A DNA stretch of 64,000 bases from Slackia faecicanis. GTDB lineage: Bacteria > Actinomycetota > Coriobacteriia > Coriobacteriales > Eggerthellaceae. How positions within the stretch are numbered: the first letter of the stretch is position 1; each line of letters opens with the position of its first letter. The position numbers and the translations under genes were made by a program. The stretch is taken from the NCBI RefSeq assembly GCF_003725295.1, contig NZ_QICB01000001.1, positions 186,001-250,000 of the forward strand, read 5' to 3'. Below are positions 13,861 to 38,343 of this stretch, piece by piece. The notes beneath the pieces are model-generated. The model ran no database searches, was not told the origin of the DNA, and was given only the letters and a program-made list of their open reading frames with translations.

Positions 13861-14295
13861 TTACGAGGCGTCGTCCGTTTCGTCGAGGAGCGTCTCCAGC
13901 GTGCGCCAGGCCAGCTCGGCGCATTTCACGCGCGCGGGCATGCGCGCGATCGATTCGAGCTGCGCCGCCTCGTCGAGGTCTTCGAAATCGTCGTCGGAAA
14001 GGCTTTCGCCGCGCACCATGGCGATGAACAGCCTGCACAGTCGGCGCGCTTCGTCAACCGATTCGCCGGTGATCAGATCGGCCATGATATCGGCCGACGC
14101 CTGGGAAACGGCGCAGCCGCTGCCCGAAAACGCCGCTTCTTCGACCGTGCCGTCCTCGATGCGCAAAGAAAGCGTCAGCCGGTCGCCGCAGCTCGGGTTG
14201 ACGCCTTCGCGCGCGTGCGTGGCGTCTTCCATATCGTATTTATAGTCGGGGTGCGCATGGTGCTGCATGAGCGCCGCCGTGTAGATGCTAGCCAT
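13861..14295 (-). CDS. sufU: SufU-type Fe-S scaffold / sulfur acceptor
   Basis: A 144-residue SufU/IscU-like protein that accepts sulfur from SufS and passes it to cluster assembly. The conserved Cys36, Asp38, Cys61 and Cys125 match the ligand set of zinc-containing SufU, and the extra insertion between the second and third cysteines, typical of SufU but absent from IscU, is present (about residues 80-120). It is the last gene of the suf operon and overlaps sufS by 8 nt, suggesting translational coupling. Confidence 0.92.
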   Translation of the reverse strand: MASIYTAALMQHHAHPDYKYDMEDATHAREGVNPSCGDRLTLSLRIEDGTVEEAAFSGSGCAVSQASADIMADLITGESVDEARRLCRLFIAMVRGESLSDDDFEDLDEAAQLESIARMPARVKCAELAWRTLETLLDETDDAS

Positions 14296-15541
14296 TGAAG
14301 GTCCTCCAGACCGTTTCGAGCCCGCGCCCGAGCGCGGCGATGTCCGATTCGTCGTTGTAGAAGGCGAGCGACGCGCGGCAGCATGCTCCCGTGCCGAGCC
14401 ATGTCAGAAGCGGCTCTGCGCAGTGGTAACCTGCTCTGATGGCCACGCCCTGCATGTCGAGGATGCTCGCCACGTCGTGCGGGTGGATGCCGTCGACGTT
14501 GAACGACACGACGCCGTGGCGCGCGTCCGGGTCGCTCGGCCCGACGATCGAGACGAAATCGAGCGCGTCGAGCGTCTCGATGCATGCCCGCATGAGGGCC
14601 GCTTCGCGCGCCTGCACGGCCTGCATGCCTACCGACTCGAGATAATCGACCGCCACGCCCGCCGCATGGATGCCGGCGGCGTCTTGGGTGCCCGCTTCGA
14701 ATTTCTCGGGGATGCCTGCCCAGGCGGCGTCTTCGAACGTGACCGATTCAATCATTTCGCCGCCGGTGAGAAACGGGCTGCTCGATTCGAGCAGGGAGCG
14801 CCGTCCCCAGAGCACGCCGATGCCGAAGGGACCGAAGGCCTTGTGGGCCGAAAAGGCGAAGAAGTCGCATTCGAGCGCCGCGACGTCGATGTCCATATGC
14901 GGGACCGATTGCGCCCCGTCGACCACCAGGTATCCGCCGTGCTCATGGACGCGTCGCGCCATGTCGGCGATGGGGTTTTCCACGCCCAAGACGTTGGACA
15001 CGTGCGCGGCCGCCACGATGCGCGTGGAGGGGCCGATTTTGGCATCCATCTCCTCGGCCGTGATGACGTCGTTCTCGTCGGGGAAAAGATACGTCAGCTT
15101 CGCGCCCGTCGCGCGGCAGGCCTGCTGCCACGGGATCAGGTTGCTATGGTGCTCCATGGCGGTGACGCATACCTCGTCGCCTTCGCGCAGGATATCGAGC
15201 GCGAACGAGCCCGCTACGATATTGAGGGCCTCGCTCGTGTTGCGGCAGATGACGACTTCGTCGCGGTCGCGCGCGCCGATGAGGCGGGCCAGCTTGGCGC
15301 GCGCCTCGCCGATCGCGGTCGTGGCCTGGACCGAGAGGTCGTACAGGCCGCGCAAGGCGTTGGCGTTGAGGGTCTCGTAGAAACGCGCCTGCGCGTCGAT
15401 TACGCAGCGAGGGCGCTGCGCGGTGGCCGCGCTGTCGAGAAACGCCAGGTCGTCGCGGGCGGCGAGCAGCGGGAAGTCGGCCTTGTAGGGATTGGTCGAG
15501 ATGTCGCCGGCCTGGGCGGCGCTTAGGGGCAGACGATGCAC
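14288..15541 (-). CDS. sufS: SufS cysteine desulfurase
   Basis: A 417-residue pyridoxal-phosphate enzyme that removes sulfur from cysteine to give alanine and an enzyme persulfide. The PLP lysine is Lys234 in 'SAHKAFGPFGIG', the His-rich 'MEHHSN' lies near 129-134, and the persulfide cysteine is Cys374 in 'RAGYHCAEPL', the group II (SufS) arrangement. Its start overlaps the end of sufD by 19 nt and its end overlaps sufU, so the five suf genes are one tightly coupled unit. Sulfur most likely goes to SufU and then to the SufBCD scaffold. Confidence 0.95.
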   Translation of the reverse strand: MHRLPLSAAQAGDISTNPYKADFPLLAARDDLAFLDSAATAQRPRCVIDAQARFYETLNANALRGLYDLSVQATTAIGEARAKLARLIGARDRDEVVICRNTSEALNIVAGSFALDILREGDEVCVTAMEHHSNLIPWQQACRATGAKLTYLFPDENDVITAEEMDAKIGPSTRIVAAAHVSNVLGVENPIADMARRVHEHGGYLVVDGAQSVPHMDIDVAALECDFFAFSAHKAFGPFGIGVLWGRRSLLESSSPFLTGGEMIESVTFEDAAWAGIPEKFEAGTQDAAGIHAAGVAVDYLESVGMQAVQAREAALMRACIETLDALDFVSIVGPSDPDARHGVVSFNVDGIHPHDVASILDMQGVAIRAGYHCAEPLLTWLGTGACCRASLAFYNDESDIAALGRGLETVWRTFNG

Positions 15542-16758
15542 GGGGCCTCATCCTCCTTCGTTTCGAGGGCGCCGTCGGCGATGCGCCGCACGGCTTCTCG
15601 GCATCGGTCGTCAGGGCAGGCGGCCAGCGCCGACTCGAGCACGGAGCGCGAGAACAGCGCCTCGGCCGCGTCGGGCGAAAGGCCGCGGCTCGCCAGATAG
15701 AACATCCGGTCGGCGTCGATGTGGCCGATCGAGGCGCCGTGGTCGCCCGCCACGTCGTCTTCGCCGCACAGGATCACGGGGCAGCTGCGGTTGTGCGCAT
15801 GCTCGCCCACGATGAGCGCCGACTCCTGCTCGTGGCCGCTTGCGCCCTTGCATCCGCGAATGAAATCGATCGTCGCCTTGAGCGTTTTGACGCTTTCGTC
15901 CGCCAGGACGCCGTCGGCCTGCAAGTCGCTCGTGCTGGCCGCTCCGCGGTGCTCGAAGATGTAGTTGAAGTCCGTCTCGGCCTGTTCGCGGCCGAGGTAG
16001 CGCACGTCCGCGCGCGCCCGGGAGCCGGCCCCGCGCAGGTCGCATGCGAATCCCGTAGAGGAGGCGCCGGTCGAGAGCGCGAAATGCCGCACGTCGACCG
16101 AGGCTTCGTCGGCCAGGACGCAACCCGCGTCGTCGAGGACCGTCGTGCGCGCCCCGCCCGCCTGCAGCGCGGTCAGCGCGAGTTTGCTGCGCGCTCCGCA
16201 GAAGATGCGCAGGACGGAACCGAGAAACGCGTCCGCGGCGCGCGTCGCGTCGAACACCACCGCGACTTCGGCCGCGCTGTCTTCGGCGAGCACGATATCG
16301 AGCGCGTTCGCGCACGCTCCTCCTTCGCCGGCTTCCAGATACACGACGGCGCGGGCGTCGGCGGCGCCGCGGACGGTTTGAAGGACGACGCGCTCCGGCG
16401 CGATCGATTCGACGAATGCGGCGGCGTCGCGTCCGGCGCCCGTCTTGAACGCGCCTGCCGCGTCGCCGATCCGTTCGCGGTTTGCGAGGTCGCTTTGGTA
16501 GCGTGAAAGCGCGCAGGCATCCAGGCCCGCCGCGTCGTCTGCCGCGCCCTCGGCAGGCGCGGCCGCGCACGGCAGCGTTCGCAGAGCCGCGTCGAACGCA
16601 TCGGGCGCGGGGGAGTCCATGAAGCCCGTCGCATCGACGGTCGCGGCGCGCACGGATGCGGCGGGCGCTTTCACGGCGATGTCGGCATGGTTCATGCCGA
16701 GGCGATGCCAGGTGGGGGCGGGCATCGCGTTCGCATGGCGAATGACGGTGTCGAGCAT
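15523..16758 (-). CDS. sufD: SufD, Fe-S cluster assembly scaffold subunit
   Basis: A 411-residue SufD-like protein, partner of SufB in the SufBC2D scaffold. The N-terminal part is variable and Ala-rich; the conserved beta-helix core and C-terminal 'HIDADRMFYLASRGLSPDAAEALF' region, split here by the 'YLASRG' motif, match the family and parallel the same region in SufB. The ATG overlaps the sufB stop codon as TAATG. An upstream extension of this frame is open through sufB but is only a shadow of that gene. Assignment rests on the C-terminal match plus its place between sufB and sufS. Confidence 0.9.
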   Translation of the reverse strand: MLDTVIRHANAMPAPTWHRLGMNHADIAVKAPAASVRAATVDATGFMDSPAPDAFDAALRTLPCAAAPAEGAADDAAGLDACALSRYQSDLANRERIGDAAGAFKTGAGRDAAAFVESIAPERVVLQTVRGAADARAVVYLEAGEGGACANALDIVLAEDSAAEVAVVFDATRAADAFLGSVLRIFCGARSKLALTALQAGGARTTVLDDAGCVLADEASVDVRHFALSTGASSTGFACDLRGAGSRARADVRYLGREQAETDFNYIFEHRGAASTSDLQADGVLADESVKTLKATIDFIRGCKGASGHEQESALIVGEHAHNRSCPVILCGEDDVAGDHGASIGHIDADRMFYLASRGLSPDAAEALFSRSVLESALAACPDDRCREAVRRIADGALETKEDEAPCIVCP

Positions 16759-18167
16759 TATCCGATCGCCCCTTCCATTTCCAACTTGATGAGATTGTTC
16801 ATTTCGACCGCGTACTCGAGCGGCAGCTCTTTGCTGACGGGCTCGGCGAAGCCGTTGACCACCATGGTGCGCGCCTCTTCTTCGGGAATGCCGCGGCTCA
16901 TCAGGTAGAACACGGTGTCGTCGCCGATGCGGCCGATGGTCGCCTCGTGTCCGATGTCCACATGCTTGCAGCGGATGTCCATGGCGGGAATGGTGTCGGC
17001 GCGGCTTTCGTCGTCGAGCATGAGCGACTGGCACGACACGCTCGCGCTTGCGCCGCGCGCGGCTTCGGTCGCCACGATCGACGAGCGGAAGGTGGAGATG
17101 CCGCCCCCCTTCGAAATGGATTTGGTCTGCACCGCGACCGACGTGTTCGGCGCGGCGAGGACCGCCTTGCAGCCGGTATCGAGGTTCTGGGCGGTTCCCG
17201 CGAAGGTGATGCCGGTGAAGGTGCAGGCGGCGTTTTCGCCGGCGAGCACCGACATGGGATAGAGATAGCCCACGTGGCTGCCGAACGATCCGCTGACCCA
17301 ATCGATCGAGCCGCCTTCGCCCACCAGGGCGCGCTTGGTGTTGAGGTTGTACATGTTCTTCGACCAGTTCTCGATCGTGGAATAGCGTAGGCGCGCGCGG
17401 TCGCCCACGAACAGCTCCACGCAGCCGGCGTGCAGGTTCGCCACGTTGTACTTCGGCGCCGAGCATCCCTCGATGAAATGCAGGTCGGCGTCGTCTTCCA
17501 CGATGATGAGCGTGTGCTCGAACTGTCCCGCGCCCTTCGCGTTGAGGCGGAAGTAGCTTTGCAGCGGGAAATCGAGCTTGGCGCCCGCGGGCACGTAGAC
17601 GAAGCTGCCTCCGCTCCATACCGCGCCGTGCAGCGCGGCGAACTTATGGTCGCGCGGCGTGACGAGCGTCATGAACTTCTCACGGATGAGCTCAGCGTAT
17701 TCGCCCTTGAGCGCCTCTTCGATGCCCGAATACACGATGCCCATCTTCGCGGCCGATTCCTGGACGCTGTGATAGACCAGCTCGGAATCGTATTGTGCGC
17801 CGACGCCCGCGAGATAGGCTCGCTCCGCCTCGGGAATGCCGAGGCGCTCGAAGGTGTCCTTGATGTCGGCGGGCACGCTTTCCCAATCGCTTTTCTGCTC
17901 GGTGTCGGGCTTGACGTAGGTGACGATATGGTCCATGTCGAGCCCGTCGAGCGCGGGGCCCCAATCGGGCACGGGCATGCTCAGATAGGTTTCGAGCGAC
18001 TTCAGGCGGAATTCGAGCATCCATGCGGGCTCGTCTTTCTTGCGCGAGATCTCTTCGACGATGGCGGGCGTCAGGCCCGCGTCGACGCGTTCGGCGCCTG
18101 CGTCTTCGAAGCGGAAATCGTACATGCTGCGGTCGATATCGGCGACTTCGGTGCGGTTCTTTGCCAT
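16758..18167 (-). CDS. sufB: SufB, Fe-S cluster assembly scaffold subunit
   Basis: A 469-residue SufB, the main cluster-building subunit of SufBC2D. Family features include 'DWESVPADIKDTFERLGIP' near residue 80, 'AALHGAVWSGGSFVYVPAG' in the middle, 'FEHTLIIVEDDADLHFIEGC' preceding the core beta-helix, and 'GHEATIGRIGDDTVFYLMSRG' near the end, each shown here only in part. The conserved Cys in 'IEGCSAP' is present. It lies 8 nt after sufC and is translationally coupled to sufD. Confidence 0.96.
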   Translation of the reverse strand: MAKNRTEVADIDRSMYDFRFEDAGAERVDAGLTPAIVEEISRKKDEPAWMLEFRLKSLETYLSMPVPDWGPALDGLDMDHIVTYVKPDTEQKSDWESVPADIKDTFERLGIPEAERAYLAGVGAQYDSELVYHSVQESAAKMGIVYSGIEEALKGEYAELIREKFMTLVTPRDHKFAALHGAVWSGGSFVYVPAGAKLDFPLQSYFRLNAKGAGQFEHTLIIVEDDADLHFIEGCSAPKYNVANLHAGCVELFVGDRARLRYSTIENWSKNMYNLNTKRALVGEGGSIDWVSGSFGSHVGYLYPMSVLAGENAACTFTGITFAGTAQNLDTGCKAVLAAPNTSVAVQTKSISKGGGISTFRSSIVATEAARGASASVSCQSLMLDDESRADTIPAMDIRCKHVDIGHEATIGRIGDDTVFYLMSRGIPEEEARTMVVNGFAEPVSKELPLEYAVEMNNLIKLEMEGAIG

Positions 18168-18175
18168 GGCTTCGC

Positions 18176-19030
18176 CTACCGTTCGTCTGCCGCGACGCAG
18201 TGGCCGTCGGTCTTGCCGCCGAGAAGGCCCTCGTCGGCATGGTCGCAGTGAAGCGCGCCGCGCTCGCCGGCAGCCTCTTCGGCATGGCGCGCGAAACGCT
18301 CGAACCCGGCGCGGTCGATTTCTTCCACGAGCGACGCGTCGCCGCTTTCGACCAGCCTTCCGTCCACGATCACATGCACGCAGTCGATCGACAGGTTTTC
18401 GAGGATGCGGGTGTTGTGCGTGATGATGACGAGCGTGCCGTCGCAGGATTCGCGATAGGCGCGGATGCCGCGCGACACCACGCCGAGCGCGTCGACATCG
18501 AGGCCCGAGTCGGTTTCGTCCAGGATGGCCAGGCGCGGCTCGAGCAGCAGCAATTGGAGCATCTCGAGCTTCTTCTTCTCGCCGCCCGAAAAGCCGACGC
18601 CCAGTTCGCGCTCGAGATAGGAAGGGTCCATTTCGAGCTTTTCGGCCAGGTCGGCGATGCGGCGGCGGAAGCGCTTGCCCTTCATCTCGATGCCTTCGCG
18701 GCCTGCGGTTTGGGCGCGAAGGAGGCTTGAGACCGGCACGCCCGGAATCTCCACCGGGGCCTGGAAGCTCAAAAACACGCCGGCGCGGGACCGCTTGTCG
18801 GGGGAGAGGTCGACGATATCGTTTCCTGCGAAGACGATCGATCCTTCGTCGACGTCGTAGGCGGGGTCGCCCATGACGACGTGGCCGAAGGTCGATTTGC
18901 CGGCCCCGTTCGGGCCCATGATGACATGGGTCTGGCCGGCGGGAATGTCGATCGATATATCGCGGAGGATGGGTTTTCCATCGGCGGAGGCGCTAAGGCC
19001 CTGGACAGAAAGCAGGATGTCAGGGTTCAT
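18176..19030 (-). CDS. sufC: SufC, Fe-S cluster assembly ATPase
   Basis: A 284-residue ABC-type ATPase that powers the SufB/SufD scaffold. Walker A is 'GPNGAGKST' at residues 39-47, the signature is 'GFSGGEKKK' near 146-154, and 'LAILDETDSGLDVDALG' is the Walker B/D-loop typical of SufC. The C-terminal 25 residues, including a His/Cys-containing stretch, extend past the usual SufC length of about 250. It is the first gene of the operon, with an AGAAAGG ribosome site and a promoter about 40 nt upstream. Confidence 0.95.
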   Translation of the reverse strand: MNPDILLSVQGLSASADGKPILRDISIDIPAGQTHVIMGPNGAGKSTFGHVVMGDPAYDVDEGSIVFAGNDIVDLSPDKRSRAGVFLSFQAPVEIPGVPVSSLLRAQTAGREGIEMKGKRFRRRIADLAEKLEMDPSYLERELGVGFSGGEKKKLEMLQLLLLEPRLAILDETDSGLDVDALGVVSRGIRAYRESCDGTLVIITHNTRILENLSIDCVHVIVDGRLVESGDASLVEEIDRAGFERFARHAEEAAGERGALHCDHADEGLLGGKTDGHCVAADER

Positions 19031-19041
19031 GGCATGCCTTT

Positions 19042-19070
19042 CTAATCATATTAAATTTCTAGGATTAAAA
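19042..19070. promoter_or_regulatory. Candidate Rrf2/IscR operator, copy 1
   Basis: CTAATCATATTAAA begins an AT-rich segment ending in ATTAAAA. It resembles the segment at 19096-19126 (CTAATTCATACTAAA ... ATTAAAA). The two copies flank the suf promoter, one over the transcribed leader and one upstream of the -35 box. Confidence 0.4.
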
Positions 19071-19094
19071 TACGGCATGCCGACGAGGTGTCAA
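19067..19094 (-). promoter_or_regulatory. suf operon promoter
   Basis: On the minus strand a perfect TTGACA -35 (19089-19094) and a TATTTT -10 (19067-19072) are spaced by 16 nt, about 40 nt upstream of the sufC start. Confidence 0.7.
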
Positions 19095-19095
19095 G

Positions 19096-19126
19096 CTAAT
19101 TCATACTAAAAAGGTATCAATTAAAA
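19096..19126. promoter_or_regulatory. Candidate Rrf2/IscR operator, copy 2
   Basis: This copy contains a near-perfect inverted repeat, ATTCATAC-7 nt-GTATCAAT (19099-19121, one mismatch), just upstream of the suf -35 box, in the interval after the Rrf2 gene. Confidence 0.45.
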
Positions 19127-19161
19127 CAAACGCCGCATCTTCGTGCGGCGCGGGGAAGATC

Positions 19162-19602
19162 TTATGATTCGCCGCCTGTCGCGCAGGCTTCGATCCGATG
19201 GGGGCGGGCCAAATCGTCCAAGGTCACGCCGTCGACGTAGGATTCGATCGCCTCGTCGAGGCCTTGCCAGAACGCGAGCGTGGTGCACGTGCCCATGCGG
19301 GGACAGTCGACGGCCTGCCCGTCGACGCAGGCGACGGGCGCGGTGCTGCCTTCGGCGGAGCGCAGAATGTCGCCCGCCGTCACCGACGACGCCTCGCGGG
19401 CGAGAAGGTAGCCTCCTCGTTGGCCGCGCACGCTCTTGAGCAGGCCGTCACGCGTCAGGGAGCGCACGAGCTGCTCGAGGTATTTGAGCGGCATATGCTC
19501 GCGCTGGGCCACGTCTTTCAGCGACACGGGCGCTTCTTGCGCGTTGACGGCGACATCGACCATGAGCCGCATGGCGTAGCGCCCTTTCGTCGAGATCATC
19601 AT
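19162..19602 (-). CDS. Rrf2 family Fe-S-type regulator (IscR-like) of the suf operon
   Basis: A 146-residue Rrf2 regulator. The winged helix-turn-helix fills residues 1-65 ('KGRYAMRLMVDVA', 'LEQLVRSLTRDGLLKSVRG'), and three cysteines, Cys92, Cys100 and Cys106, have nearly the spacing of the [2Fe-2S] ligands of IscR. It should therefore sense cluster status and repress suf when clusters are abundant, although the sequence does not prove cluster binding. It lies directly upstream of sufC, in the same direction, with a 131-nt interval holding the suf promoter and two similar AT-rich sites. SufR-like and CymR-like functions are alternatives. Confidence 0.85.
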   Translation of the reverse strand: MMISTKGRYAMRLMVDVAVNAQEAPVSLKDVAQREHMPLKYLEQLVRSLTRDGLLKSVRGQRGGYLLAREASSVTAGDILRSAEGSTAPVACVDGQAVDCPRMGTCTTLAFWQGLDEAIESYVDGVTLDDLARPHRIEACATGGES

Positions 19603-19809: not shown

Positions 19810-20805
19810 TTAAGCCGTCTCGCCGCTTTCCTCTTCGCGGCGATCCATGGCCTTGACGAAGTCGCGGGTGCCCGTGAACACTTCGTGGGTGTAGGGGTTC
19901 ACGCCGAGCTTCTTGGCGCGGTAGACGATGTATCCGAGGGCCGCGATATTGGCGACCAGCGCGATCACGGAGATGGCCAGGTTGATGTCGGGGTTATTGA
20001 CCGAGTTCACCGCGAACACGCTGTCGTTGGCGAACATGGGGCAGACCTGGCAGAACATGCACCAGATGGCCAGCGTGTAGGCGCGGTTCTGGATCCAGCC
20101 GCCCTTGTTCCAGATCGCATTGGCTACCGTGGGCGCCAGCAGCAGCGCCAGGCCGCAGTACCAGGAGTGCGTGGGCAGGCAGTTGTAGGTGTAGCAGAAG
20201 TTCCACAGGTCGTAGGCGAGGATGAACACCCAGGTCATATCGGGCCAGAGCATGTCCTGCTTCTTCTTGGACACGTAGATGCCCCACCAGCCGGTCATGC
20301 AGAAGATGTTGATGATGCCGGCGATGCCGTTGAACACGTTATGCCAACCGCCGTAGAGGGTGACGCCTTCGGAGGAGACCCAGGTGGTGCCGAAAGCGCG
20401 CACGGCGCTTTCGAAGTCGCTCACCACGGCGATCAGGATATTGATGGCCACGATGACGAAGGGGAAGGCCTTGAACCAATGGCTCTTGCCGATCTTGCCC
20501 CAGCGATATTTCAGGGCCATGAAGCCGATGCAGCCGATGGTCGCCGCATAGAGCTTCGCGTAGTGGAACCAGCTGTTCATATCGGTATAGGTGGGGTTGT
20601 TCAAGGCCCACTGCGCGCCCGCCGCCGCGCTGATGCTGATCGCGATGAAGTACACGGTCAGGATGGCGGGAACGACGAGGAAGCAGATGATGCCGCCCGC
20701 TTTGGTGCGGCGGGCGAATTCGTTCATCAGGATCAGGCCGACGAAGACGACGACCCATCCGACCCATTGGAAGACGGCGGTATCGCCGTATACGTCGAAT
20801 AGCAT
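19810..20805 (-). CDS. DUF5692-like polytopic membrane protein
   Basis: A 331-residue membrane protein with about eight or nine hydrophobic segments, starting at 'VFQWVGWVVVFVGLILMNE' (given in part) and rich in Trp, Asn and Tyr. A loop near residues 265-275 carries two cysteines in 'MFCQVCPMF', and another has 'LPTHSWYCG'. I recall this family as DUF5692, which is common in Eggerthellaceae, but its function is not established. It lies downstream of, and in the same direction as, a TetR regulator that may control it. I see no transporter motif, haem motif or ATPase. The hydrophilic C-terminus (about 305-331) is charged and probably cytoplasmic. Confidence 0.65.
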   Translation of the reverse strand: MLFDVYGDTAVFQWVGWVVVFVGLILMNEFARRTKAGGIICFLVVPAILTVYFIAISISAAAGAQWALNNPTYTDMNSWFHYAKLYAATIGCIGFMALKYRWGKIGKSHWFKAFPFVIVAINILIAVVSDFESAVRAFGTTWVSSEGVTLYGGWHNVFNGIAGIINIFCMTGWWGIYVSKKKQDMLWPDMTWVFILAYDLWNFCYTYNCLPTHSWYCGLALLLAPTVANAIWNKGGWIQNRAYTLAIWCMFCQVCPMFANDSVFAVNSVNNPDINLAISVIALVANIAALGYIVYRAKKLGVNPYTHEVFTGTRDFVKAMDRREEESGETA

Positions 20806-20979: not shown

Positions 20980-21546
20980 CTATACTCGGATGCGCCCTCG
21001 GTCGAGATGCAGGGACTGGGCGACGATGTCTTCGATGACCGCGTCGGGGGCTTCGGGGTGCGACCGCACGTATCCCGCGACGCCGAGGATCAGCACGTAG
21101 AAGGATTCGTAGACGTGCTCGATGCGGACCTCGTGCAGGCGCTCGTAATCTTGCACCGTGGTGGCGACGATGTAGCGCGCCGCCTGGTCCGCCACGCGGT
21201 TGATGAAATCGATGTAGAGCGCGGCGTTTTCGCGCGACGCCAGCGCGCGGCGGAACGAATCGCGTTCGAAGAGCGCGCGGCGCAGCACGGGGACGAGCGT
21301 GTCGAGCGCGCCGTCCACATCGCCTTCCACGCGGCAGTCGTTCCATGCCTTGAGCATGGCGAGGAAGTCTTCGATATACGAGTCGAGCACGGCCGACGTG
21401 ACGGCGTCTTTGTCGGTGAAGTAGTGGTAGAAAAGGCTGCGCGTGACGCCGACCCTGTCGGCGATGTCTTGCACGGACGTTTTGGCGAGGCCCTTTTCTT
21501 CGTAGAGTTCGCGCGTGCAGGCGATGATCTGCTCTCGGCGGCCCAT
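20980..21546 (-). CDS. TetR/AcrR family transcriptional regulator
   Basis: A 188-residue TetR-type regulator. The DNA-binding region is at residues 5-50, with 'TSVQDIADRVGVTRSLFYHYF' (given in part; the key motif is 'RSLFYHYF'). The C-terminal domain shows no recognised ligand site. It precedes the DUF5692-like gene on the same strand by 174 nt and lies 316 nt from the start of the divergent cytochrome operon, so either could be its target. A perfect palindrome about 150 nt upstream is a candidate operator. Confidence 0.85.
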   Translation of the reverse strand: MGRREQIIACTRELYEEKGLAKTSVQDIADRVGVTRSLFYHYFTDKDAVTSAVLDSYIEDFLAMLKAWNDCRVEGDVDGALDTLVPVLRRALFERDSFRRALASRENAALYIDFINRVADQAARYIVATTVQDYERLHEVRIEHVYESFYVLILGVAGYVRSHPEAPDAVIEDIVAQSLHLDRGRIRV

Positions 21547-21697: not shown

Positions 21698-21712
21698 TTG
21701 ACGCCCCGTCAA
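21698..21712. promoter_or_regulatory. Candidate TetR operator palindrome
   Basis: TTGACGCCCCGTCAA is a perfect 6-3-6 palindrome. A further CGTCAAT lies at 21731-21737, giving repeated TTGACG elements on the minus strand that could also serve as the TetR gene's -35. Confidence 0.4.
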
Positions 21713-21782
21713 TGTACAGTTCCGCGAATCCGTCAATCCGTAAAAAACCAGTACAAAGGCTATTTTCAGGCGAATATACACG

Positions 21783-21791
21783 TGCTATAGT
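21783..21791 (+). promoter_or_regulatory. Extended -10 promoter of the exported-reductase operon
   Basis: TGCTATAGT matches an extended -10 (TGnTATAGT) about 72 nt upstream of the cytochrome start. No clear -35 is seen, as is usual for this promoter type. Confidence 0.5.
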
Positions 21792-21804
21792 TCGCGCCGT
21801 AAAG

Positions 21805-21840
21805 TTCATTGATGTAATGAATTAAAAACTTCAATGAAGT
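21805..21840. promoter_or_regulatory. Two palindromic operator candidates just after the promoter
   Basis: TTCATTGATGTAATGAA (21805-21821, 6-bp arms) and ACTTCAATGAAGT (21828-21840, 6-bp arms) lie directly downstream of the predicted start site, where bound protein would block transcription. The first matches a site upstream of the tandem-MarR gene at 26685-26699 in 12 of 15 positions when read on the minus strand. Confidence 0.6.
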
Positions 21841-21862
21841 AAAAGAACGAGAGGGGGAAAGG

Positions 21863-22498
21863 ATGGGCGAGAAAGAACGGCAGGACGGTTTCGAAGCGCC
21901 GCAGACGCATGGGGAGGATGCGTCCGCCGTCGAGACGTCGGGCGTCGAAGGCCCTCGCGAGCCGCGCGCGAAAAGAAGGTGGCCGATCGTCGTGGGCTGC
22001 GTCGCGCTGGTGCTCGCGCTTGCGGGCGCCGGGCTTTTCGCATGGCATCAGACGCCGGGCTTTTGCAACGCGGTCTGCCACGTGCCGATGGACAACTACG
22101 TGCAGGGGTATTTCGAAGACGAGAGCCTGTGCGCGAACGCGCATTATCGTGCCGGCACGTCGTGCCTCGATTGTCACGAGCCCAAGCTCGAAGAGCAGGT
22201 GGCCGAAGGGCTCGCGTGGGTCCGCGGCGATTTCCGGGTGGACGAGAACGGCGACATCGCCACGGTCGGCGTGACCGCCGACGAGAAGATGTGCACCCAG
22301 GGCGGCTGCCATGACATGAAGGACGTGATCGCGGCCACCGCAGATTGGGGCGGCGAGGCGGGCGTCAATCCGCACGAGTCGCATCAAGGAGCGCCGATCG
22401 ATTGCAGCAACTGCCACGGCGTGCACAAGGTGTCGAACATGTATTGCAACGCGTGCCACGACTACCTGACGCCCGAAGGGTGGACGAATCCCGCATAA
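21863..22498 (+). CDS. Membrane-anchored NapC/NirT-type multihaem cytochrome c
   Basis: A 211-residue quinol-dehydrogenase-like cytochrome. A 40-residue acidic N-terminal tail and basic 'RAKRRW' precede one membrane helix (about 41-61); the rest is extracytoplasmic. Five possible haem c sites follow: CNAVCH (68-73, CX3CH), CLDCH (101-105), CTQGGCH (144-150, CX4CH), CSNCH (181-185) and CNACH (195-199). NapC/NrfH proteins take electrons from menaquinol and pass them to a periplasm-facing reductase. The next genes encode an FMN-binding lipoprotein and a Tat-exported flavoprotein, the probable recipients. The ATG follows a GAGGGGGAAAGG ribosome site. Two spacings are unusual, so the real haem number is uncertain. 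Confidence 0.85.
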   Translation: MGEKERQDGFEAPQTHGEDASAVETSGVEGPREPRAKRRWPIVVGCVALVLALAGAGLFAWHQTPGFCNAVCHVPMDNYVQGYFEDESLCANAHYRAGTSCLDCHEPKLEEQVAEGLAWVRGDFRVDENGDIATVGVTADEKMCTQGGCHDMKDVIAATADWGGEAGVNPHESHQGAPIDCSNCHGVHKVSNMYCNACHDYLTPEGWTNPA

Positions 22499-22562
22499 GG
22501 CTCAGGAGCCGTTGATTCGAAACATGCAGAGGCGGGATCGCCGCTTCTCGAGGGGAGGTTCT

Positions 22563-23057
22563 ATGAAGGGGAAGACGCAGGCGGCGGCAGGGGCCGCGGC
22601 CGCGCTCATGCTTGGCCTGACGGGCTGCGCGGCGTCGTTCGAAGGGTCTGGGTCGAAAGACGCGGCGAGCGCCGAGCAGCTCGCCATGCGCACCGACGAC
22701 CCGTGGGCGGCGGTGCAGACGGAAGCCGTGCGCACGCACGCCGAGAAAACGTATGCCGACGGCGTTTACACCGGCACAGGAACGGCTATGGAGGGCCTGG
22801 TCACTGTCACGCTTTTGGTGGACGGCAACCGCATTTCGTGTTTGGAGGTGACCCAGGAGGGCGAAAGCCAGAGCCGCGGCGGCTACGAAGCGGTGCGCGA
22901 CGGCACGTTCGCCGCCATGATCGAGGCGGCGCAGGGCTCCGATATCGATGCGGTCAGCGGAGCCACCATCACGACGGCCGGCGTGAAGATGGCCGTAAAC
23001 GACGCGTTGGCTCAGGCCGAAACGGCGCAGGGCGACACCGCGGCGGCGGGCGAATAG
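22563..23057 (+). CDS. FMN-binding domain lipoprotein
   Basis: A 164-residue exported electron carrier. The signal peptide ends in the lipobox LTGC with Cys22, so it should be anchored to the outer face of the membrane. The FMN_bind domain covers about residues 65-150 and ends with 'DAVSGATITTAG', matching the motif in which a Thr is covalently flavinylated by ApbE; no apbE gene is in the window. ATG at 22563 follows GAGGGGAGG. It lies between the NapC-type cytochrome and the Tat flavoprotein and probably relays electrons from one to the other. Confidence 0.85.
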   Translation: MKGKTQAAAGAAAALMLGLTGCAASFEGSGSKDAASAEQLAMRTDDPWAAVQTEAVRTHAEKTYADGVYTGTGTAMEGLVTVTLLVDGNRISCLEVTQEGESQSRGGYEAVRDGTFAAMIEAAQGSDIDAVSGATITTAGVKMAVNDALAQAETAQGDTAAAGE

Positions 23058-23063
23058 GGGGTC

Positions 23064-24908
23064 ATGATGAACGATTACATGAACGAAGGGATGTCGCGTC
23101 GCGACTTTCTGGCCCGCGCGGCGGCCGCCGGAGCAGGAGCCGTCGCCGTCGGGGCCTTCGCGGCGCAGCCCGCCCAGGCGGTCGAAGAGGGCTTTATCGG
23201 CGACTGGGCGGCCGACGGGTCGCGCGCGGTCGAGGTTCCTGCAAGCGCGGACACGAATGCGACGGCGCCCGACGGCACGTATCGCGAGCATAACGCAGCG
23301 GCGTTTCCCGCGAACGACGCATCGCCCATTCCTCCGCGCCCGGTTCCCGAAACCTGGGATTACGAGTGCGACATCTGCGTGGTCGGCGCAGGCGGCGGCG
23401 GACTGAACGCGGCCGCGCGCGCCGCCGAGCTGGGCGCTTCGGTGATCTGCGTGGAGGCCGCCGGCCTCCACGGCGGCAACGCCCAAGAGGCGGGCATGTG
23501 CGGCATCCTGGGCGGCTCGAAAATGCAGGAGTCGAAGCGTTTCGCGTTTCCGTCCTATCCGTTCGACGCCAAAGCCCTGACCGATTGGGCCATGGACGAA
23601 TACCATTACGCCGCCGATCCGAAGCTGATCTACAAAATCGCCGAACAGGGCGGCCCGAGCTTGGACTGGATGGCCGAATGCGGCGTGCAATGGCGCTTGG
23701 GCGAAGTGCCCGTGTACGTGGCTCCCAAAAACGCCACGCTCGACCACCACGTGCTCAAGATGAAAGACGCCACCGATGCCATGTTCAACTACGGCCAGCG
23801 CAAAGGCGTCGACTATCGCTTCCAGTGCCCGGCCGTGGCGCTCGTGCAAGACGGCGACGGACGCATCGTAGGCGTCGTGTGCAAGGAAGACTATCAGCAC
23901 GAGGTGTTCATCCATGCCGCGGCGGCCGTCATTCTGACCGCGGGCGGCTTCTGCAACAACAAGGCGCTGCTCGACCGCTATATTCCCACGGCGGCGATGG
24001 GCTGTGCGTCGAGCTATCTCACCTTGGGCGAGACGGGCGAATGCTTCCGCATGGGCCTCGGCGTCGGGGCCGACGTGTCGGGCTTCAACAGCTCGGCGAG
24101 CTTCGACGGCGGCGTGGATTGGGAGGCCGAAGGCGGCCAATGGGCGCGATTCCTCTACGATGGCATGACGCAGCTCTCGCGTCAGCCCTGGCTGACGATC
24201 GACCGCTGCGGCAATCGCTTGCGCTACATGGACAGCCGCGTCGGCGAAGACGGCGCGAACGCGATCTATGCGCTGGGCGACCTCGCCACGATCCAGATGA
24301 CGCCTCCCGGGCACCGCTCCTACATCATCTTCGACGCGAACTACGAGGACCATCTGGCCGGGTTCGCGCAGGAGCACTGCCGCAAGCTCATCACGCCCGA
24401 CCTCGAGCAGATCGAGAAAGTGCCGCCGCATTACCGCGATTGGCACCACGGCGTGCAGGACGCGATCGACGCCGACGTGCTCAAGCGCCGCGACACGCTC
24501 GAAGAGCTCGAAGCCGACCTGGGATTCGCACCCGGCGTGCTGGTCGATGCCGTGGCGAAGTGGAACGAGGCCTGCGAGCGCGGAGAAGACGACTACCTGT
24601 ATCCCATGCCGAAAGAGTGGCTCCATGCGATCGTCGAGCCGCCGTTTTACGGCTGTCGCATCGGCGGCAATCTGTACGGAACCAAGGCGGGCCTGGCGAT
24701 CAACGAGGATATGCAGGTCATGGGTATCGACGGAAGGCCTGTCGCAGGCCTGTACGCAGGCTGGCACACCGCGGGCGGCGCCTGCGGCGAGAACAGCTAT
24801 GTGGGCGACCCCATCCTCGGGTCGCTGATGGGCGATGTGGGCCTGGCGTTTTGCGGAGGATATCTGTGCGGCACGTCGGCCGTCGAGCACGAGTTGGACC
24901 GCGCCTAG
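23064..24908 (+). CDS. Tat-exported FAD-dependent reductase (fumarate-reductase flavoprotein family)
   Basis: A 614-residue flavoprotein with a Tat signal ('SRRDFLARAA', residues 11-20, cleavage near AQA-V40). The FAD-binding 'VVGAGGGGLNAA' lies at 106-117 and the second FAD region is 'GLYAGWHTAGGACGENSY' near 565-582. Family relatives reduce fumarate, urocanate or cardiac glycosides outside the membrane. Here the segment that in fumarate reductases carries the proton-donor Arg (HGxNRLGG-like) reads 'CGENSYVGDPILG', and the upstream His of the 'HxTxGG' segment is replaced in 'LYGTKAGLAIN', so it is probably not a fumarate reductase. Substrate unknown. Electrons probably come from the two preceding gene products. 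Confidence 0.85.
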   Translation: MMNDYMNEGMSRRDFLARAAAAGAGAVAVGAFAAQPAQAVEEGFIGDWAADGSRAVEVPASADTNATAPDGTYREHNAAAFPANDASPIPPRPVPETWDYECDICVVGAGGGGLNAAARAAELGASVICVEAAGLHGGNAQEAGMCGILGGSKMQESKRFAFPSYPFDAKALTDWAMDEYHYAADPKLIYKIAEQGGPSLDWMAECGVQWRLGEVPVYVAPKNATLDHHVLKMKDATDAMFNYGQRKGVDYRFQCPAVALVQDGDGRIVGVVCKEDYQHEVFIHAAAAVILTAGGFCNNKALLDRYIPTAAMGCASSYLTLGETGECFRMGLGVGADVSGFNSSASFDGGVDWEAEGGQWARFLYDGMTQLSRQPWLTIDRCGNRLRYMDSRVGEDGANAIYALGDLATIQMTPPGHRSYIIFDANYEDHLAGFAQEHCRKLITPDLEQIEKVPPHYRDWHHGVQDAIDADVLKRRDTLEELEADLGFAPGVLVDAVAKWNEACERGEDDYLYPMPKEWLHAIVEPPFYGCRIGGNLYGTKAGLAINEDMQVMGIDGRPVAGLYAGWHTAGGACGENSYVGDPILGSLMGDVGLAFCGGYLCGTSAVEHELDRA

Positions 24909-24929
24909 AGGCGCCGCTGGGAGGTTGAG

Positions 24930-25661
24930 ATGGCTACATTGATGAAAGATATGGCGCGCCCGTACGCCGGGCTGTTCGCCATCGCGCTCGTGGTGGCGCT
25001 TTTGGCCAGGATGGGCCTGTGGGTCATGGACATGACAGGCACGATCGCCTACGACTATATTTCCGCGTCGGGCGTGGCCGTTTTGGACGTGATCTGCTCC
25101 ATCCTCACCGGTTCGGCGTTCGTCGCGTTCGTATTCGCGGGATCGCTGGCCCTGACGCTTTCGACGGCGGGCGTGGCGCTTTACGGCTATCTGACGCGCC
25201 GAGATGCGATTCCCGCCCATCCGGGCACCGCGTTTTTGTGGGGCTGGGCCACGGCGCTCGTGGCGATCGCGTGCCTGGGCATCGTGGCGAGCGGCATCCT
25301 GAGCGGCGTGCAGGTCGCGTCGATGAGCTCGAAGCTGCCGGGAACGCTCGCGCTGATCGCGGCGGTCGCGGTGTTCGCGGCGTTCATCGGCACGCTGCTG
25401 ATGGCGGCGTCGCTGGTCGTGCATGCGTGCATCGTGCGCGCGGAATCGCCGTGCGCGCTGGCGAAGAACCTGGTCGTCGCCACGGCGGCGTGCGGCGTCG
25501 TGGTAATGCTGCTGACGGTGGGCACGTTCGCCTCGATCGATACGGTTTCGATCAACCTCGCGCGCGCAGGCGGATGGTTCGTCGCCGACATCGCGGCGAA
25601 TGCGGCCATGGCGGCGATCGCATGGCGCATGGCGAAAAACGCCCGGCCGACCGCGGCATAG
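24930..25661 (+). CDS. Hypothetical polytopic membrane protein of the exported-reductase operon
   Basis: A 243-residue protein with about six hydrophobic helices (near 15-35, 45-80, 100-125, 135-165, 178-200, 208-230) and short loops. I do not recognise a family: no haem, Fe-S, ATPase or transporter motif is evident. It starts 21 nt after the flavoprotein with a GGGAGG ribosome site and ends at a strong terminator, so it is the last gene of the operon. Possible roles include substrate uptake or membrane attachment of the reductase, but nothing in the sequence decides this. Confidence 0.75.
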   Translation: MATLMKDMARPYAGLFAIALVVALLARMGLWVMDMTGTIAYDYISASGVAVLDVICSILTGSAFVAFVFAGSLALTLSTAGVALYGYLTRRDAIPAHPGTAFLWGWATALVAIACLGIVASGILSGVQVASMSSKLPGTLALIAAVAVFAAFIGTLLMAASLVVHACIVRAESPCALAKNLVVATAACGVVVMLLTVGTFASIDTVSINLARAGGWFVADIAANAAMAAIAWRMAKNARPTAA

Positions 25662-25683
25662 ATAATAGATAAAGAACCGCAGA

Positions 25684-25718
25684 CGAAGACGGCCCCACGA
25701 GGGGCCGTCTTCGCTTTA
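25684..25718. terminator. Bidirectional terminator between the reductase operon and the MarR gene
   Basis: A 13-bp perfect stem (25684-25696 with 25701-25713) with an ACGA tetraloop is followed by CTTTA on the plus strand. The convergent MarR gene ends 20 nt away and could also use it. Confidence 0.75.
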
Positions 25719-25732
25719 TGAACCGTTTTCGC

Positions 25733-26659
25733 CTAGCCGATCGGCCGCAGGTTCTCCGACGCGGAAAGGCCCTTGCGCCGCTCGCGCTCGCGCAGGCCCT
25801 CGATCACCGTGTCGGTCACGGCGCGGATGGCGTCGCGCTGCGGGCGGGACAGATGCTTCCAGAGCAGCTTGCGGCCCAGGTCGTCCACCGTGCGCGCGAT
25901 GACGCGCTGCTGGGCGGCGCCTGCTTCGGTGACCTCGACGAACACCGCCTTGCGATCGTGTTCGGCGCCCATGCGCCGCACCCATGCGCGTCCTGCGAGC
26001 CTGTCTACGGCCCGGGCCACGTTGACGGGCGAGAGCTGCAGCTGCGCGGCGATGTCGCCGATGCGCATGGGGCGGCCCGTTTCGGCGAGCCGTTGCATCA
26101 CGCGGCATTCGTTATACGTGGCGCCGCATGCCGCGCGCAGCCCCGCTTCGATGGCCGAGCGGAATCGCTCGAGCGAAGCCAGGGCGCGCGAAGCCGGATA
26201 GCAGGAGGTTTCGCGTTCTGAAACGGGCGGGTCGATGAAAGCGCCCGCCGCGATCGAGGTTTCCAAGATCGCGCGCCAGGCGGCGTCTTCGGTGGGGAAG
26301 AGCTCGTAGAGCTGGGCCACGATCGACTCGTTGGCGGCGGCCACGTGCGCGATTCCCTTTTCGGTGGCGGCCACGGTGCGCGAACGGCTGTCGGCGCGGC
26401 CCACCTCGCGCTTGGCGAAGCCCGCGGATTCGAGGGCGTTGGCCGCCTGGGTGACCACGTTGGGGCGCAGGTCCAGCATCCGAGAAAGCTCTCCTTGGGC
26501 GATGCTTCCGCCCGCGGCTGCCAGCTTGACGAGCATGCGGTATTGGGTGATGTTCAGCTCGCTTGCAGCCCGCAAGCCGCGCTTGAGGGCGTCGTGGGTC
26601 ATTTCGAACGCGACGAAATAGGCCGAATCGAGGGAGAGGTTTTCTTTGCGAGGGCTCAT
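25733..26659 (-). CDS. Regulator with two MarR domains in one chain
   Basis: A 308-residue protein made of two consecutive MarR-type winged helix domains. The first spans about residues 10-145, with 'ITQYRMLVKLAAAGGSIAQG' leading into 'LSRMLDLRPNVVTQAANAL' (both in part) and the wing 'REVGRADSRSRTVAATEKG'. The second spans about 165-295, with 'IGDIAAQLQLSPVNVARAVD' and the wing 'RRMGAEHDRKAVFVEVTEAG'. MarR proteins normally act as dimers of single domains, so this one may form an internal dimer or bind two half-sites. It faces the exported-reductase operon tail to tail, and a sequence before its start resembles the palindrome in that operon's promoter, suggesting that it controls both. Confidence 0.85.
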   Translation of the reverse strand: MSPRKENLSLDSAYFVAFEMTHDALKRGLRAASELNITQYRMLVKLAAAGGSIAQGELSRMLDLRPNVVTQAANALESAGFAKREVGRADSRSRTVAATEKGIAHVAAANESIVAQLYELFPTEDAAWRAILETSIAAGAFIDPPVSERETSCYPASRALASLERFRSAIEAGLRAACGATYNECRVMQRLAETGRPMRIGDIAAQLQLSPVNVARAVDRLAGRAWVRRMGAEHDRKAVFVEVTEAGAAQQRVIARTVDDLGRKLLWKHLSRPQRDAIRAVTDTVIEGLRERERRKGLSASENLRPIG

Positions 26660-26684
26660 GCGGGCTTTCTACGATACGAGATAT

Positions 26685-26699
26685 TTCAACGATGTAACG
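26685..26699. promoter_or_regulatory. Candidate operator before the tandem-MarR gene
   Basis: The minus strand reads CGTTACATCGTTGAA here, matching CATTACATCAATGAA from the cytochrome promoter palindrome in 12 of 15 positions. It overlaps a possible -35 (GTTACA, spaced 16 nt from TATCGT), compatible with autoregulation. Confidence 0.5.
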
Positions 26700-26821
26700 A
26701 TATGGTAGCGTCCGCGAACCTTCGCGATCCGGCGGATCGTCCCTCGCCGCAAACTCTCCATGCCGCCCGTCGTTTCTCCGAGCCCGTTCATCGCGGCGGG
26801 TTCGGGCCGCACGATAGAGGA

Positions 26822-35472: not shown

Positions 35473-38334
35473 ATGGAGTTGATTGTTTCCCTCGTGGGCG
35501 TGCCCTGTCTCGCGGCGCTGCTGATGCTGGCAGTGCGCTGCGACAAGGCTCGAAACGTATTGGCCGTGGCGTCCGTCGCGGCGATCGGCTTGCTGTCAGT
35601 CGTGTTCGCGGTTCGCTATCTGGGCGAAAGCCCCGTGTATTTCGTGCTTCCCGAATCGACTGCCGGCGTATTGGGAATCGTCAATTTCTTGATCGAGATT
35701 GCCGTCGGGGCCTTCATTCTCGCCTACGCGATCCGCTACAAGCGCATGCTGGCGCTCGGATTGGCGCTGGTGCAGCTCGTCATGGCCGTCTGGATCGAGG
35801 TGTCGGTCCTTGCGGGCCACGAGTTCTCCACCCAGATGCGCGTCGACCAGCTCTCGGTCATCATGGCCCTCATCATCGGCATCGTGGGCTCCGGCATCTG
35901 CGTCTACGCCCTTGGATACATGAAGGATTTCCAGGAGCACCATCCCGAGCAGAAGGACCGCCGCCCGTGGTTCTTCGCGCTCATGTTCGCGTTCCTCGCG
36001 GCCATGTTCAATATCGTCTTCAGCGACAACATGGCATGGATCTATACCGCATGGGAAGTCACCACGCTGTGCTCGTTCCTGCTCATCGGCTTCACCAAGA
36101 CCGACGAAGCCATCAATAACGCATTCCGCCAGATCGTGATGAACATGCTCGGCGGCGTGGCGTTCCAGGTCGCCATCGCGTTCGCGGCGCTCAACGGATT
36201 GCCGCTCGTGTTCAGCGAATTCCTCATGGCGGGCGCCATGTCGGCCGGCACGGCCGCTGCCGCCCTGTTCGCCGTTCCCGTGGTGCTGCTCGCCTTCGCG
36301 GGCATGACCAAGGCGGCCCAGATGCCGTTCCATACGTGGCTTCTCGGAGCCATGGTCGCTCCTACGCCCACGAGCGCCCTGCTGCACTCCTCCACGATGG
36401 TGAAGGCGGGCGTGTTCCTGCTGATCAAGCTGTCGCCGCTGTTCCTGGTCTTTCCGATCGCATCGGGCATGGTCGTCATCGTGGGCGGCCTGACCTTCCT
36501 GTTCTGCTCGTTCTTGGCCATCTCGCAGAGCAACGCCAAGCGCGTGCTCGCATACTCGACGATCGCCAACCTGGGCCTGATCACCGCCTGCGCGGGTGTC
36601 GGCACGCCTGAGGCGATCTGGGCCGCGATCTTCTTGGTGGTCTTCCATGCCGTGGCGAAAAGCCTGCTGTTCCTGTGCGTCGGCACCGCCGAGCACCATA
36701 TCGGCAGCCGCAACATCGAAGACATGGACGAGCTCTTCGAGCGCATGCCGCGTCTGGCTCGCTTCATGATGCTCGGCATCATGACCATGTTCATCGCTCC
36801 CTTCGGCATGCTGGTCTCCAAGTGGGCGACGCTCGTTTCGTTCGCCACCACCGGCCAGGTGCTCCTGCTGGTCCTGCTGGCATTCGGCAGCGCGGCCACC
36901 TTCATGTTCTGGGGCAAGTGGCTCGGCAAGCTCGCCGGCATCGCCGCGCATCGCGAAAGCGAGGAGGTCACGGTCAACAAGACCGAGTGGAGCGCGATCA
37001 TTTTGATGGCCGTCCTGGTCGTGGCCTGCTGCGTCGGCATGCCCTTCATCTCCTCCGCGTTCGTCGAGCCGTACCTGGCAGGCGTCTACGGCATGGCCCC
37101 GCTCGCCATCGGCTTCGACAACATGGCGATCATGGCGATCATCGTGGCCTTCATCGTCGTGGTGCTGTTCGGCACGCTCGGCAAGGCTAAGAAAAAGGTT
37201 GTTCCCGTCTACATGGCAGGCATCACCGTCGACTCTTCGAAGCGCGTCTTCAAGGGCGCCCTCGGCGGCGAGCGCGAGGCCACCTCGCGCAACTGGTACC
37301 TCGAAGGCATCTTCGGCGAGAAACGCCTCGACAAGCCCGCCACCATCGTCACCGCAGCCGTGCTCGTCGTCTGCCTCGTCGCGAGCATCTTCGCGGGCGG
37401 CACGCTCGGCTCCGTCTCGCTGCCCATGTATCTGCAGACCGCTTCGCTGAACGAAAGCGTGTTCTCCACGCTGATCGGCATCGTCGTGTTTCTCGTCGTC
37501 GGCCCCGTTCTCGGATGCCTGCTGGCGGGCCTCGACCGCATCATCAGCGCCCGCATGCAGGGCCGTGTCGGCCCTCCGCTGCTGCAGCCGTATTACGACG
37601 TGCGCAAGCTCATCGCCAAAGATGACGTGAGCGTCAACACGGTCGAAGGCACCTACATCACCATGGCGCTCATCTTCACGCTGATCGCCGGCGGCGTGTT
37701 CTTCGGCGGCGGCAACTTCCTGATGTGCGTGTTCCTGGTCACGTTGTCGGCTTTGTTCTTCATCCTGGCAGCCTACTCGTCGCGCTCGCCGTATGCCGAA
37801 ATCGGCGCCGACCGCGAAATCCTGCAGGTCATGTCCTACGAGCCCATGATCTTGTTCGTCGCGGTGGGCATGCTGCTCACCATGGGCACCTTCGATGTGG
37901 CGGGCCTGTTCCACGGCAGCGCCCCGATGATCGTCGCCGCATGGCCAATCTTCATCGGACTGCTTTTCGTGCTGACCATCAAGCTGCGCAAATCGCCGTT
38001 CGACCTTTCGTATTCGCACCATGCCCACCAGGAGCTCGTCAAAGGCGTGACCACCGAGATGTCCGGCCGCACGCTCGCCAAGGTGGAAGTGATGCACTGG
38101 TGCGAGAACGTGTTGTTCATGGCCTGGGTCGCGATGTTCTTCGTCTGGTCTAACCCGGCATCCATCGCCCTCGCCGTGGTCGTGGCCGCAGCGGTCTATT
38201 TCCTCGAGATCTGGATCGACAACAACTTCGCGCGCGTGAAGTGGCAGTCCTGCCTGAAGTGGGCCTGGATCGTCTCGCTCGTCGCGGGCCTCGTCAATAT
38301 CCTCGGTCTCGTGCTGTACATCATCTTCGCGTAG
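35473..38334 (+). CDS. Fused EchA-EchB membrane subunit of an Ech-type hydrogenase
   Basis: A 953-residue membrane protein combining two subunits that are normally separate. Residues 1 to about 570 are an antiporter-like NuoL/EchA module ('AWEVTTLCSF' and the 'KAAQMPFHTWLLGAMVAPTP' Lys/His region). A hydrophilic stretch (about 570-615) leads to a NuoH/EchB module with 'ISARMQGRVGPPLLQPYYD' near 688 and 'SPYAEIGADREI' near 775. Together they should couple ferredoxin-driven H2 formation to ion pumping. The frame is continuous with no internal ribosome site needed. It is the first gene of a five-gene operon and follows GGAGGAGG. EchA/EchB identity rests on motifs and on the following genes. Confidence 0.88.
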   Translation: MELIVSLVGVPCLAALLMLAVRCDKARNVLAVASVAAIGLLSVVFAVRYLGESPVYFVLPESTAGVLGIVNFLIEIAVGAFILAYAIRYKRMLALGLALVQLVMAVWIEVSVLAGHEFSTQMRVDQLSVIMALIIGIVGSGICVYALGYMKDFQEHHPEQKDRRPWFFALMFAFLAAMFNIVFSDNMAWIYTAWEVTTLCSFLLIGFTKTDEAINNAFRQIVMNMLGGVAFQVAIAFAALNGLPLVFSEFLMAGAMSAGTAAAALFAVPVVLLAFAGMTKAAQMPFHTWLLGAMVAPTPTSALLHSSTMVKAGVFLLIKLSPLFLVFPIASGMVVIVGGLTFLFCSFLAISQSNAKRVLAYSTIANLGLITACAGVGTPEAIWAAIFLVVFHAVAKSLLFLCVGTAEHHIGSRNIEDMDELFERMPRLARFMMLGIMTMFIAPFGMLVSKWATLVSFATTGQVLLLVLLAFGSAATFMFWGKWLGKLAGIAAHRESEEVTVNKTEWSAIILMAVLVVACCVGMPFISSAFVEPYLAGVYGMAPLAIGFDNMAIMAIIVAFIVVVLFGTLGKAKKKVVPVYMAGITVDSSKRVFKGALGGEREATSRNWYLEGIFGEKRLDKPATIVTAAVLVVCLVASIFAGGTLGSVSLPMYLQTASLNESVFSTLIGIVVFLVVGPVLGCLLAGLDRIISARMQGRVGPPLLQPYYDVRKLIAKDDVSVNTVEGTYITMALIFTLIAGGVFFGGGNFLMCVFLVTLSALFFILAAYSSRSPYAEIGADREILQVMSYEPMILFVAVGMLLTMGTFDVAGLFHGSAPMIVAAWPIFIGLLFVLTIKLRKSPFDLSYSHHAHQELVKGVTTEMSGRTLAKVEVMHWCENVLFMAWVAMFFVWSNPASIALAVVVAAAVYFLEIWIDNNFARVKWQSCLKWAWIVSLVAGLVNILGLVLYIIFA

Positions 38335-38343
38335 GAGCCAATC

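Follow-up and report, generated by a model that had tools for sequence, protein, structure and literature searches.

A cluster of redox and regulatory genes lies in a 64,000-nucleotide stretch of Slackia faecicanis DNA (contig NZ_QICB01000001.1, positions 186,001 to 250,000), the whole of which is called the window here. An initial annotation of the window described five genes: a multihaem cytochrome, a flavin mononucleotide (FMN)-binding lipoprotein, a flavin adenine dinucleotide (FAD) reductase exported by the twin-arginine translocation (Tat) pathway and a six-helix membrane protein in one operon, followed by a convergent gene with two MarR domains. An open reading frame check and domain searches place all five at the positions first given, with the domains first described. 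The unit is larger than was thought, because a TetR-family regulator and a DUF5692 membrane protein encoded upstream had been overlooked. The gene cluster is a conserved module kept intact by many gut Eggerthellaceae, and it probably encodes a menaquinol-linked, inducible extracytoplasmic reductase system acting on one conserved, probably non-dicarboxylate substrate. Its parts, in window coordinates, are as follows.

19810-20805, minus strand: DUF5692 integral membrane protein, 331 residues (PF18948, 8e-139); conserved part of the module
20980-21546, minus strand: TetR-family regulator, 188 residues, divergent from the operon (PF00440, 3.5e-14)
21698-21736, no strand: TetR-type operator region, with palindrome TTGACGCCCCGTCAA at 21698-21712 and a degenerate second copy ending GTCAA at 21723-21736
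21763-21791, plus strand: predicted operon promoter, -35 TTTTCA, 17 nt, extended -10 TGCTATAGT
21805-21845, no strand: two MarR-operator-like sites, TTCATTGATGTAATGA at 21805-21820 and TTCAATGAAGTA at 21830-21841
21863-22498, plus strand: membrane-anchored five-haem cytochrome c, Cgr1-like (PF14537, 5.5e-10; NF051471, 3e-43, below cut-off)
22563-23057, plus strand: FMN-binding lipoprotein (PF04205, 6e-11; lipobox; flavinylation motif SGATIT)
23064-24908, plus strand: Tat-exported FAD reductase of the fumarate-reductase superfamily (PF00890, 5e-30; Tat motif SRRDFL)
24930-25661, plus strand: six-helix membrane protein whose family has no name in the databases (no Pfam or NCBIfam match)
25682-25717, no strand: hairpin between the convergent transcripts, probably a bidirectional terminator
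25733-26659, minus strand: tandem-MarR regulator, 308 residues, two MarR domains
26685-26700, no strand: MarR-operator-like site in the marR promoter, TTCAACGATGTAACGA

The four operon genes are separated by gaps of 64, 6 and 21 nt and have purine-rich ribosome-binding sites. The hairpin between the operon and the convergent marR has a 13-bp stem and a stability of about -30 kcal/mol. The gaps, the ribosome-binding sites, the extended -10 promoter and the strong hairpin support a single transcript, as had been proposed. Two protein descriptions fared differently: the "NapC-type" cytochrome is indeed multihaem but has five haem motifs and is Cgr1-like (PF14537), whereas the membrane protein remains unrecognised, with six helices and no database match.

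Conservation was measured in 51 loci carrying an orthologue of the FAD reductase, the neighbourhoods being searched with each protein. Contig ends or masked bases account for the four loci without the FMN lipoprotein, which the other 47 have. The membrane protein is present in 48 (a biased count, as discussed below), DUF5692 in 45 in three different arrangements, the double MarR in 39, always downstream and convergent, the cytochrome in 38 and TetR in 36. LDH, the next gene in the window and used as a control, is kept in 3. About 20 Eggerthellaceae genera and a sister family-level group share the gene order, but the flanking LDH is not retained with it; the conservation is thus far beyond chance, and the co-occurrence of the five genes, on which the initial annotation staked its proposal, holds. 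When the locus is rearranged DUF5692 stays with the operon, either co-directional upstream (L083-L086) or co-directional downstream (L079). Three loci of the sister group (f25) keep DUF5692 and MarR, with no TetR seen nearby.

The FAD reductase is a single-copy gene well separated from its paralogues. Its orthologue group occurs in 48 of 299 genomes of the order, one per genome, at 1097 bits or more, and the next homologue reaches at most 526 bits. The orthologues are 65-93% identical to the window protein (one more entry, 75% identical, has a damaged frame), and none was found outside the order in the phylum sample. The membrane protein was found by a family search in 52 of 138 genomes, essentially one per genome. 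A strict peptide-pattern scan of the genome contigs matched only two Adlercreutzia loci.

Degraded and divergent versions of the module also occur. At one locus (L089, genome G097) the module has apparently decayed: the FAD orthologue has been lost, and of the membrane protein only a C-terminal remnant is left next to DUF5692. Two others (L117 and L088) are divergent versions in which the FAD enzyme is 69% and DUF5692 40% identical and the membrane protein is weak or undetected. A further locus (L123:1737-9266, G055) holds two tandem paralogous units, each with a double MarR (35%), an FAD reductase (41-43%) and an FMN protein, which suggests a wider family of MarR-FMN-FAD reductase units.

The constant electron carrier of the module is the FMN lipoprotein, and the cytochrome is dispensable. 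The FMN protein is present wherever its position is readable, and a lipobox and a flavinylation motif are found in every intact copy. The protein combines an FMN_bind domain, a [S/T]GA[S/T]-type motif and an export signal, and the genome has one ApbE (PF02424, 1.3e-79); it thus has the features of an ApbE-flavinylated extracytosolic carrier, and its FMN would be covalently attached. The cytochrome has three CXXCH motifs, one CX3CH and one CX4CH, conserved in intact copies, and scores 147.8 bits against the Cgr1 model NF051471, below the cut-off of 340. It is missing from at least eight operons that keep the FMN, FAD and membrane genes; the cytochrome-less genomes examined carry cytochrome paralogues elsewhere. 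Since the cytochrome is lost from operons that keep the FMN gene, the lipoprotein is likely the direct donor to the FAD enzyme and the cytochrome an exchangeable quinol-side part. This reverses the view of the initial annotation, in which the FMN carrier was the extra component. Flavin and haem carriers have been described as alternatives for such enzymes (PMC8238504), and a more general electron-transfer or docking role has been suggested for Cgr1 (PMC5953540).

The AlphaFold2 model of the six-helix protein (predicted local distance difference test score, pLDDT, 83.5) is a confident one and has six long helices, but a comparison of this fold with the PDB gave nothing significant, and no Pfam family matched above threshold among 29 homologues. 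A haem-b role was considered and is unlikely, since no histidine falls in an invariant or nearly invariant column. The charge pattern suggests that both termini are inside; the two conserved loops, at about residues 36-60 and 122-138, would then be exposed on the outer face of the membrane, where the lipoprotein and the reductase also lie. Our favoured guess is a docking platform or a cofactor-free quinol site.

Dedicated control of the operon by the tandem MarR is supported by a predicted operator. Strict TTCA-N4-TGAA matches are present in 16 of the 37 marR promoters and in 19 of the 45 operon promoters, where dinucleotide shuffles predict 0.2 in each set. A matrix trained on marR promoters only exceeds the 99th shuffle percentile in 24 of 35 operon promoters from loci with MarR, in none of 10 from loci without it, and in 0 of 47 and 1 of 40 control regions. 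In the window genome the pattern TTCAWYGATGTAAYGA, which goes back to the two sites themselves, matches with fewer than two mismatches at exactly two places, the operon and marR promoters; five further matches have two mismatches each. The argument for dedicated control is that both promoters have the operator across the family, that it does not exceed background where MarR is absent and that the window genome offers no third site this close to the pattern. The regulator thus has what is expected of a local one, MarR domains and a predicted operator in its own and its neighbour's promoter, and the operon sites lie directly 3' of the -10 element, which ends at 21791.

Contrary to what the initial annotation had implied, MarR is not the sole regulator. 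Perfect TTGAC-N5-GTCAA palindromes are found only in tetR loci, often paired with start points 24 bp apart; one copy in the window shares bases with the -35 hexamer of a promoter-like site directed toward tetR. TetR, with operator-like sites of its own, accompanies the operon in the 36 loci counted above and is the regulator left where MarR is missing. Every locus that lacks one of the two regulators has the other, the exception being one locus cut by a contig end. Two repressors guarding one operon might indicate a detoxification or redox-balancing reductase, working without energy gain, in which MarR and TetR sense a harmful compound that the exported enzyme neutralises. Toxic small molecules are common signals for MarR and TetR proteins. 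Neither regulator directly indicates toxicity sensing, however, and the cytochrome-FMN-FAD path looks made for sustained flux from the quinol pool, so that we consider this explanation unlikely.

DUF5692 may link the module to a second type of reductase. Its fold, from a model of moderate confidence (AlphaFold2 pLDDT 73), gave nothing significant against the PDB; as a guess, the protein is a transporter or membrane sensor. The DUF5692 genes of other Coriobacteriia families often have as neighbours TetR, HypB and an enzyme of about 930 residues with the domain order of IsrA, a putative isoprene reductase. The enzyme has PF07992, PF14691 and flanking ferredoxin motifs and lies near HypB; its assignment to the IsrA group is by domains rather than by comparison with the IsrA sequence. 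Published IsrA-homologue neighbourhoods contain DUF5692 in 40% and TetR in 21% of cases (PMC10134865). Among the 299 genomes of the order, 48 have the FAD enzyme, and 45 of these also have the close DUF5692 group, which is adjacent to the enzyme gene in 41; of the 98 that have the IsrA-like enzyme, 75 carry the group, adjacent in 43. The two enzymes occur together in 3 genomes, against 15.7 expected if they were independent. The recurring DUF5692-TetR pair beside both enzymes hints at a shared substrate class. An obligate partnership of the pair with a reductase was rejected, as 14 genomes have the close DUF5692 group with neither enzyme. Oleate hydratase, tried as a fatty-acid clue from Acetobacterium, is no consistent neighbour and is absent from the window genome. 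That genome has two more DUF5692 genes (L119 and L120, at about 124500 and 286600 of contig G000:C2), each with its own TetR and no reductase beside it; the one at 124500 is broken across frames.

These patterns could mean that the exported enzyme and the cytosolic IsrA-type enzyme are unrelated reductases of the same substrate class, with DUF5692-TetR as their shared uptake or sensing pair; the mutual avoidance of the two enzymes and the rarity of DUF5692 with neither of them fit this. The exclusivity is confounded by phylogeny, however, since most occurrences of the two enzymes fall in separate families; other genomes have DUF5692-TetR pairs on their own, DUF5692 lies far from the IsrA-like gene in many genomes of family f2, the inconsistent oleate hydratase gives no help, and the IsrA substrate is itself putative. 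The window enzyme is a PF00890 protein and not a PF14691/PF07992 enzyme with HypA/HypB, and only DUF5692-TetR is common to the two. A shared substrate class therefore seems improbable. A bolder version can be given little credence: the module would be the quinol-linked exported counterpart of the IsrA-type reductases, both hydrogenating the same class of unactivated or conjugated C=C bonds, the Eggerthellaceae by respiration and their fermentative relatives in the cytosol, with the membrane protein as a cofactor-free quinol-side partner of the flavinylated lipoprotein.

The FAD enzyme itself is placed in the fumarate-reductase superfamily by Pfam and by sequence comparison with solved structures, and its Tat motif SRRDFL is conserved among the orthologues. 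It scores 130.7 bits against TIGR01813, the flavocytochrome c type fumarate reductase model (cut-off 285.45), and the best-matching NCBIfam models all stay below their cut-offs. In FccA, His504 and Arg544 are carboxylate ligands and Arg402 is catalytic. In profile alignments the FccA segment V-H504-H505-T-M-G-G corresponds to L537-Y538-G539-T-K-A-G and the segment G-A-N-R544 to G-E-N-S578. Both FccA ligands are retained in the UrdA chain compared; here Tyr538 and Ser578 take their places and are at least 90% conserved among the orthologues. With these ligands replaced a small dicarboxylate substrate is unlikely, and the enzyme probably does not act as a reductase of fumarate, urocanate or a similar small carboxylate, a point on which the initial annotation had made its proposal depend. 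By profile, the solved structure most similar to the enzyme is that of a delta4-(5alpha)-ketosteroid dehydrogenase (1.5e-32; fumarate reductase 5e-29), at most a hint of bulkier neutral substrates. A plain fumarate reductase, or a urocanate- or methacrylate-like carboxylate reductase whose FMN domain has split off as a lipoprotein, would suit the PF00890 and TIGR01813-type similarity, the flavocytochrome c fumarate reductases among the best PDB relatives and the FMN domains that commonly accompany such enzymes (PMC8238504), but it is very unlikely in view of the missed TIGR01813 cut-off, the replaced ligands and the several other superfamily members of the genome that could serve fumarate.

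The reading that we consider probable, an inducible quinol-linked reductase module acting outside the cell, starts from the gene set, the long conservation and the shared operators, together with the export, lipidation, haem and flavinylation motifs that bear out the exported redox system first proposed. Menaquinol would reduce the five-haem cytochrome or, where this is missing, another quinol-side donor, either a cytochrome paralogue or the six-helix membrane protein. Electrons would then pass to the covalent FMN of the lipoprotein and on to the Tat-exported FAD enzyme, which would reduce an activated C=C bond, by analogy with its superfamily, of one specific conserved substrate outside the cell. 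The tandem MarR would repress the operon and itself through the TTCA-N4-TGAA sites, those of the operon just 3' of its -10, and TetR would act through the TTGAC-N5-GTCAA palindromes in the region that separates tetR from the operon. MarR, TetR or both would be relieved by an inducer, which is presumably the substrate or its product. DUF5692 would transport this compound or sense it at the membrane, the weakest step of the scheme. The electron order, the C=C chemistry and the respiratory use are what we infer; the substrate may be diet- or host-derived.

Several points weigh against this reading. The whole reading is drawn from sequence analysis. Most loci were gathered through the membrane protein, which biases the count of that protein. 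The loci are related by descent, and the promoter counts are not independent events. In the window, one or two bases of the marR-promoter site and of the second operon site differ from the consensus. The FccA Arg402 region was left unaligned by HMMER, and Arg392 could correspond to it by eye with a one-residue gap. The C=C chemistry rests on the superfamily, which also includes ketosteroid dehydrogenases.

The nearest known system is cgr1-cgr2 of Eggerthella lenta (PMC5953540), and the kinship seen in the initial annotation stands: both have a membrane-anchored PF14537 multihaem cytochrome beside a Tat-exported PF00890 FAD reductase. The Cgr system is inducible, with electron flow proposed from the quinone pool, features that we infer here. 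It consists of two genes found in some strains only, whereas the module is conserved across genera and adds the FMN lipoprotein, the new membrane protein, the tandem MarR, TetR and DUF5692. The module cytochrome scores too low for the cut-off of the Cgr1 model, and the best 25 of 45 matches of the FAD protein include no model named for Cgr2. As in the flavinylated extracytosolic systems with fumarate-reductase-like enzymes (PMC8238504), an ApbE-type FMN protein would serve an exported PF00890 enzyme. Flavin and haem carriers are described as alternatives in those systems, whereas both occur here in one operon and only the flavin carrier is constant; the six-helix protein matches in Pfam none of their membrane partners (MsrQ-like PF01794). 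UrdA and FccA of Shewanella share the superfamily fold, and their FMN domain and tetrahaem domain, respectively, do the jobs that separate proteins would do in the module. The module differs in having these carriers, PF04205 included, as separate polypeptides and in its replaced carboxylate-binding His and Arg. IsrA clusters (PMC10134865) share the DUF5692 and TetR neighbours, but IsrA, an NADH-linked Fe-S flavoenzyme accompanied by the nickel chaperones HypA/HypB, is unrelated to the module enzyme, an exported PF00890 protein that would be fed by FMN and haem. No study of the locus was found among open-licence papers, searched by presumed E. lenta locus tags and by substrate names; subscription work on Eggerthella reductases may have been missed.

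Two other gene groups of the window were recognised by eye from their translations. Directly beyond DUF5692 lies a Suf-type iron-sulfur assembly operon with an Rrf2-like regulator (13861-19602), and a gene run at 35473-41003 resembles a membrane-bound hydrogenase of the Ech or formate-hydrogenlyase type.

The Eggerthellaceae carry many exported reductases without known substrates, and the module is one of them. It is a case in which flavin and haem carriers would serve one enzyme and the flavin carrier alone is kept when parts are lost. It also points to an unnamed membrane-protein family and places DUF5692 in a functional context. Because the enzyme is single copy, conserved across genera and provided with its own regulators and predicted operators, its inducer and substrate can be looked for with a simple induction screen.

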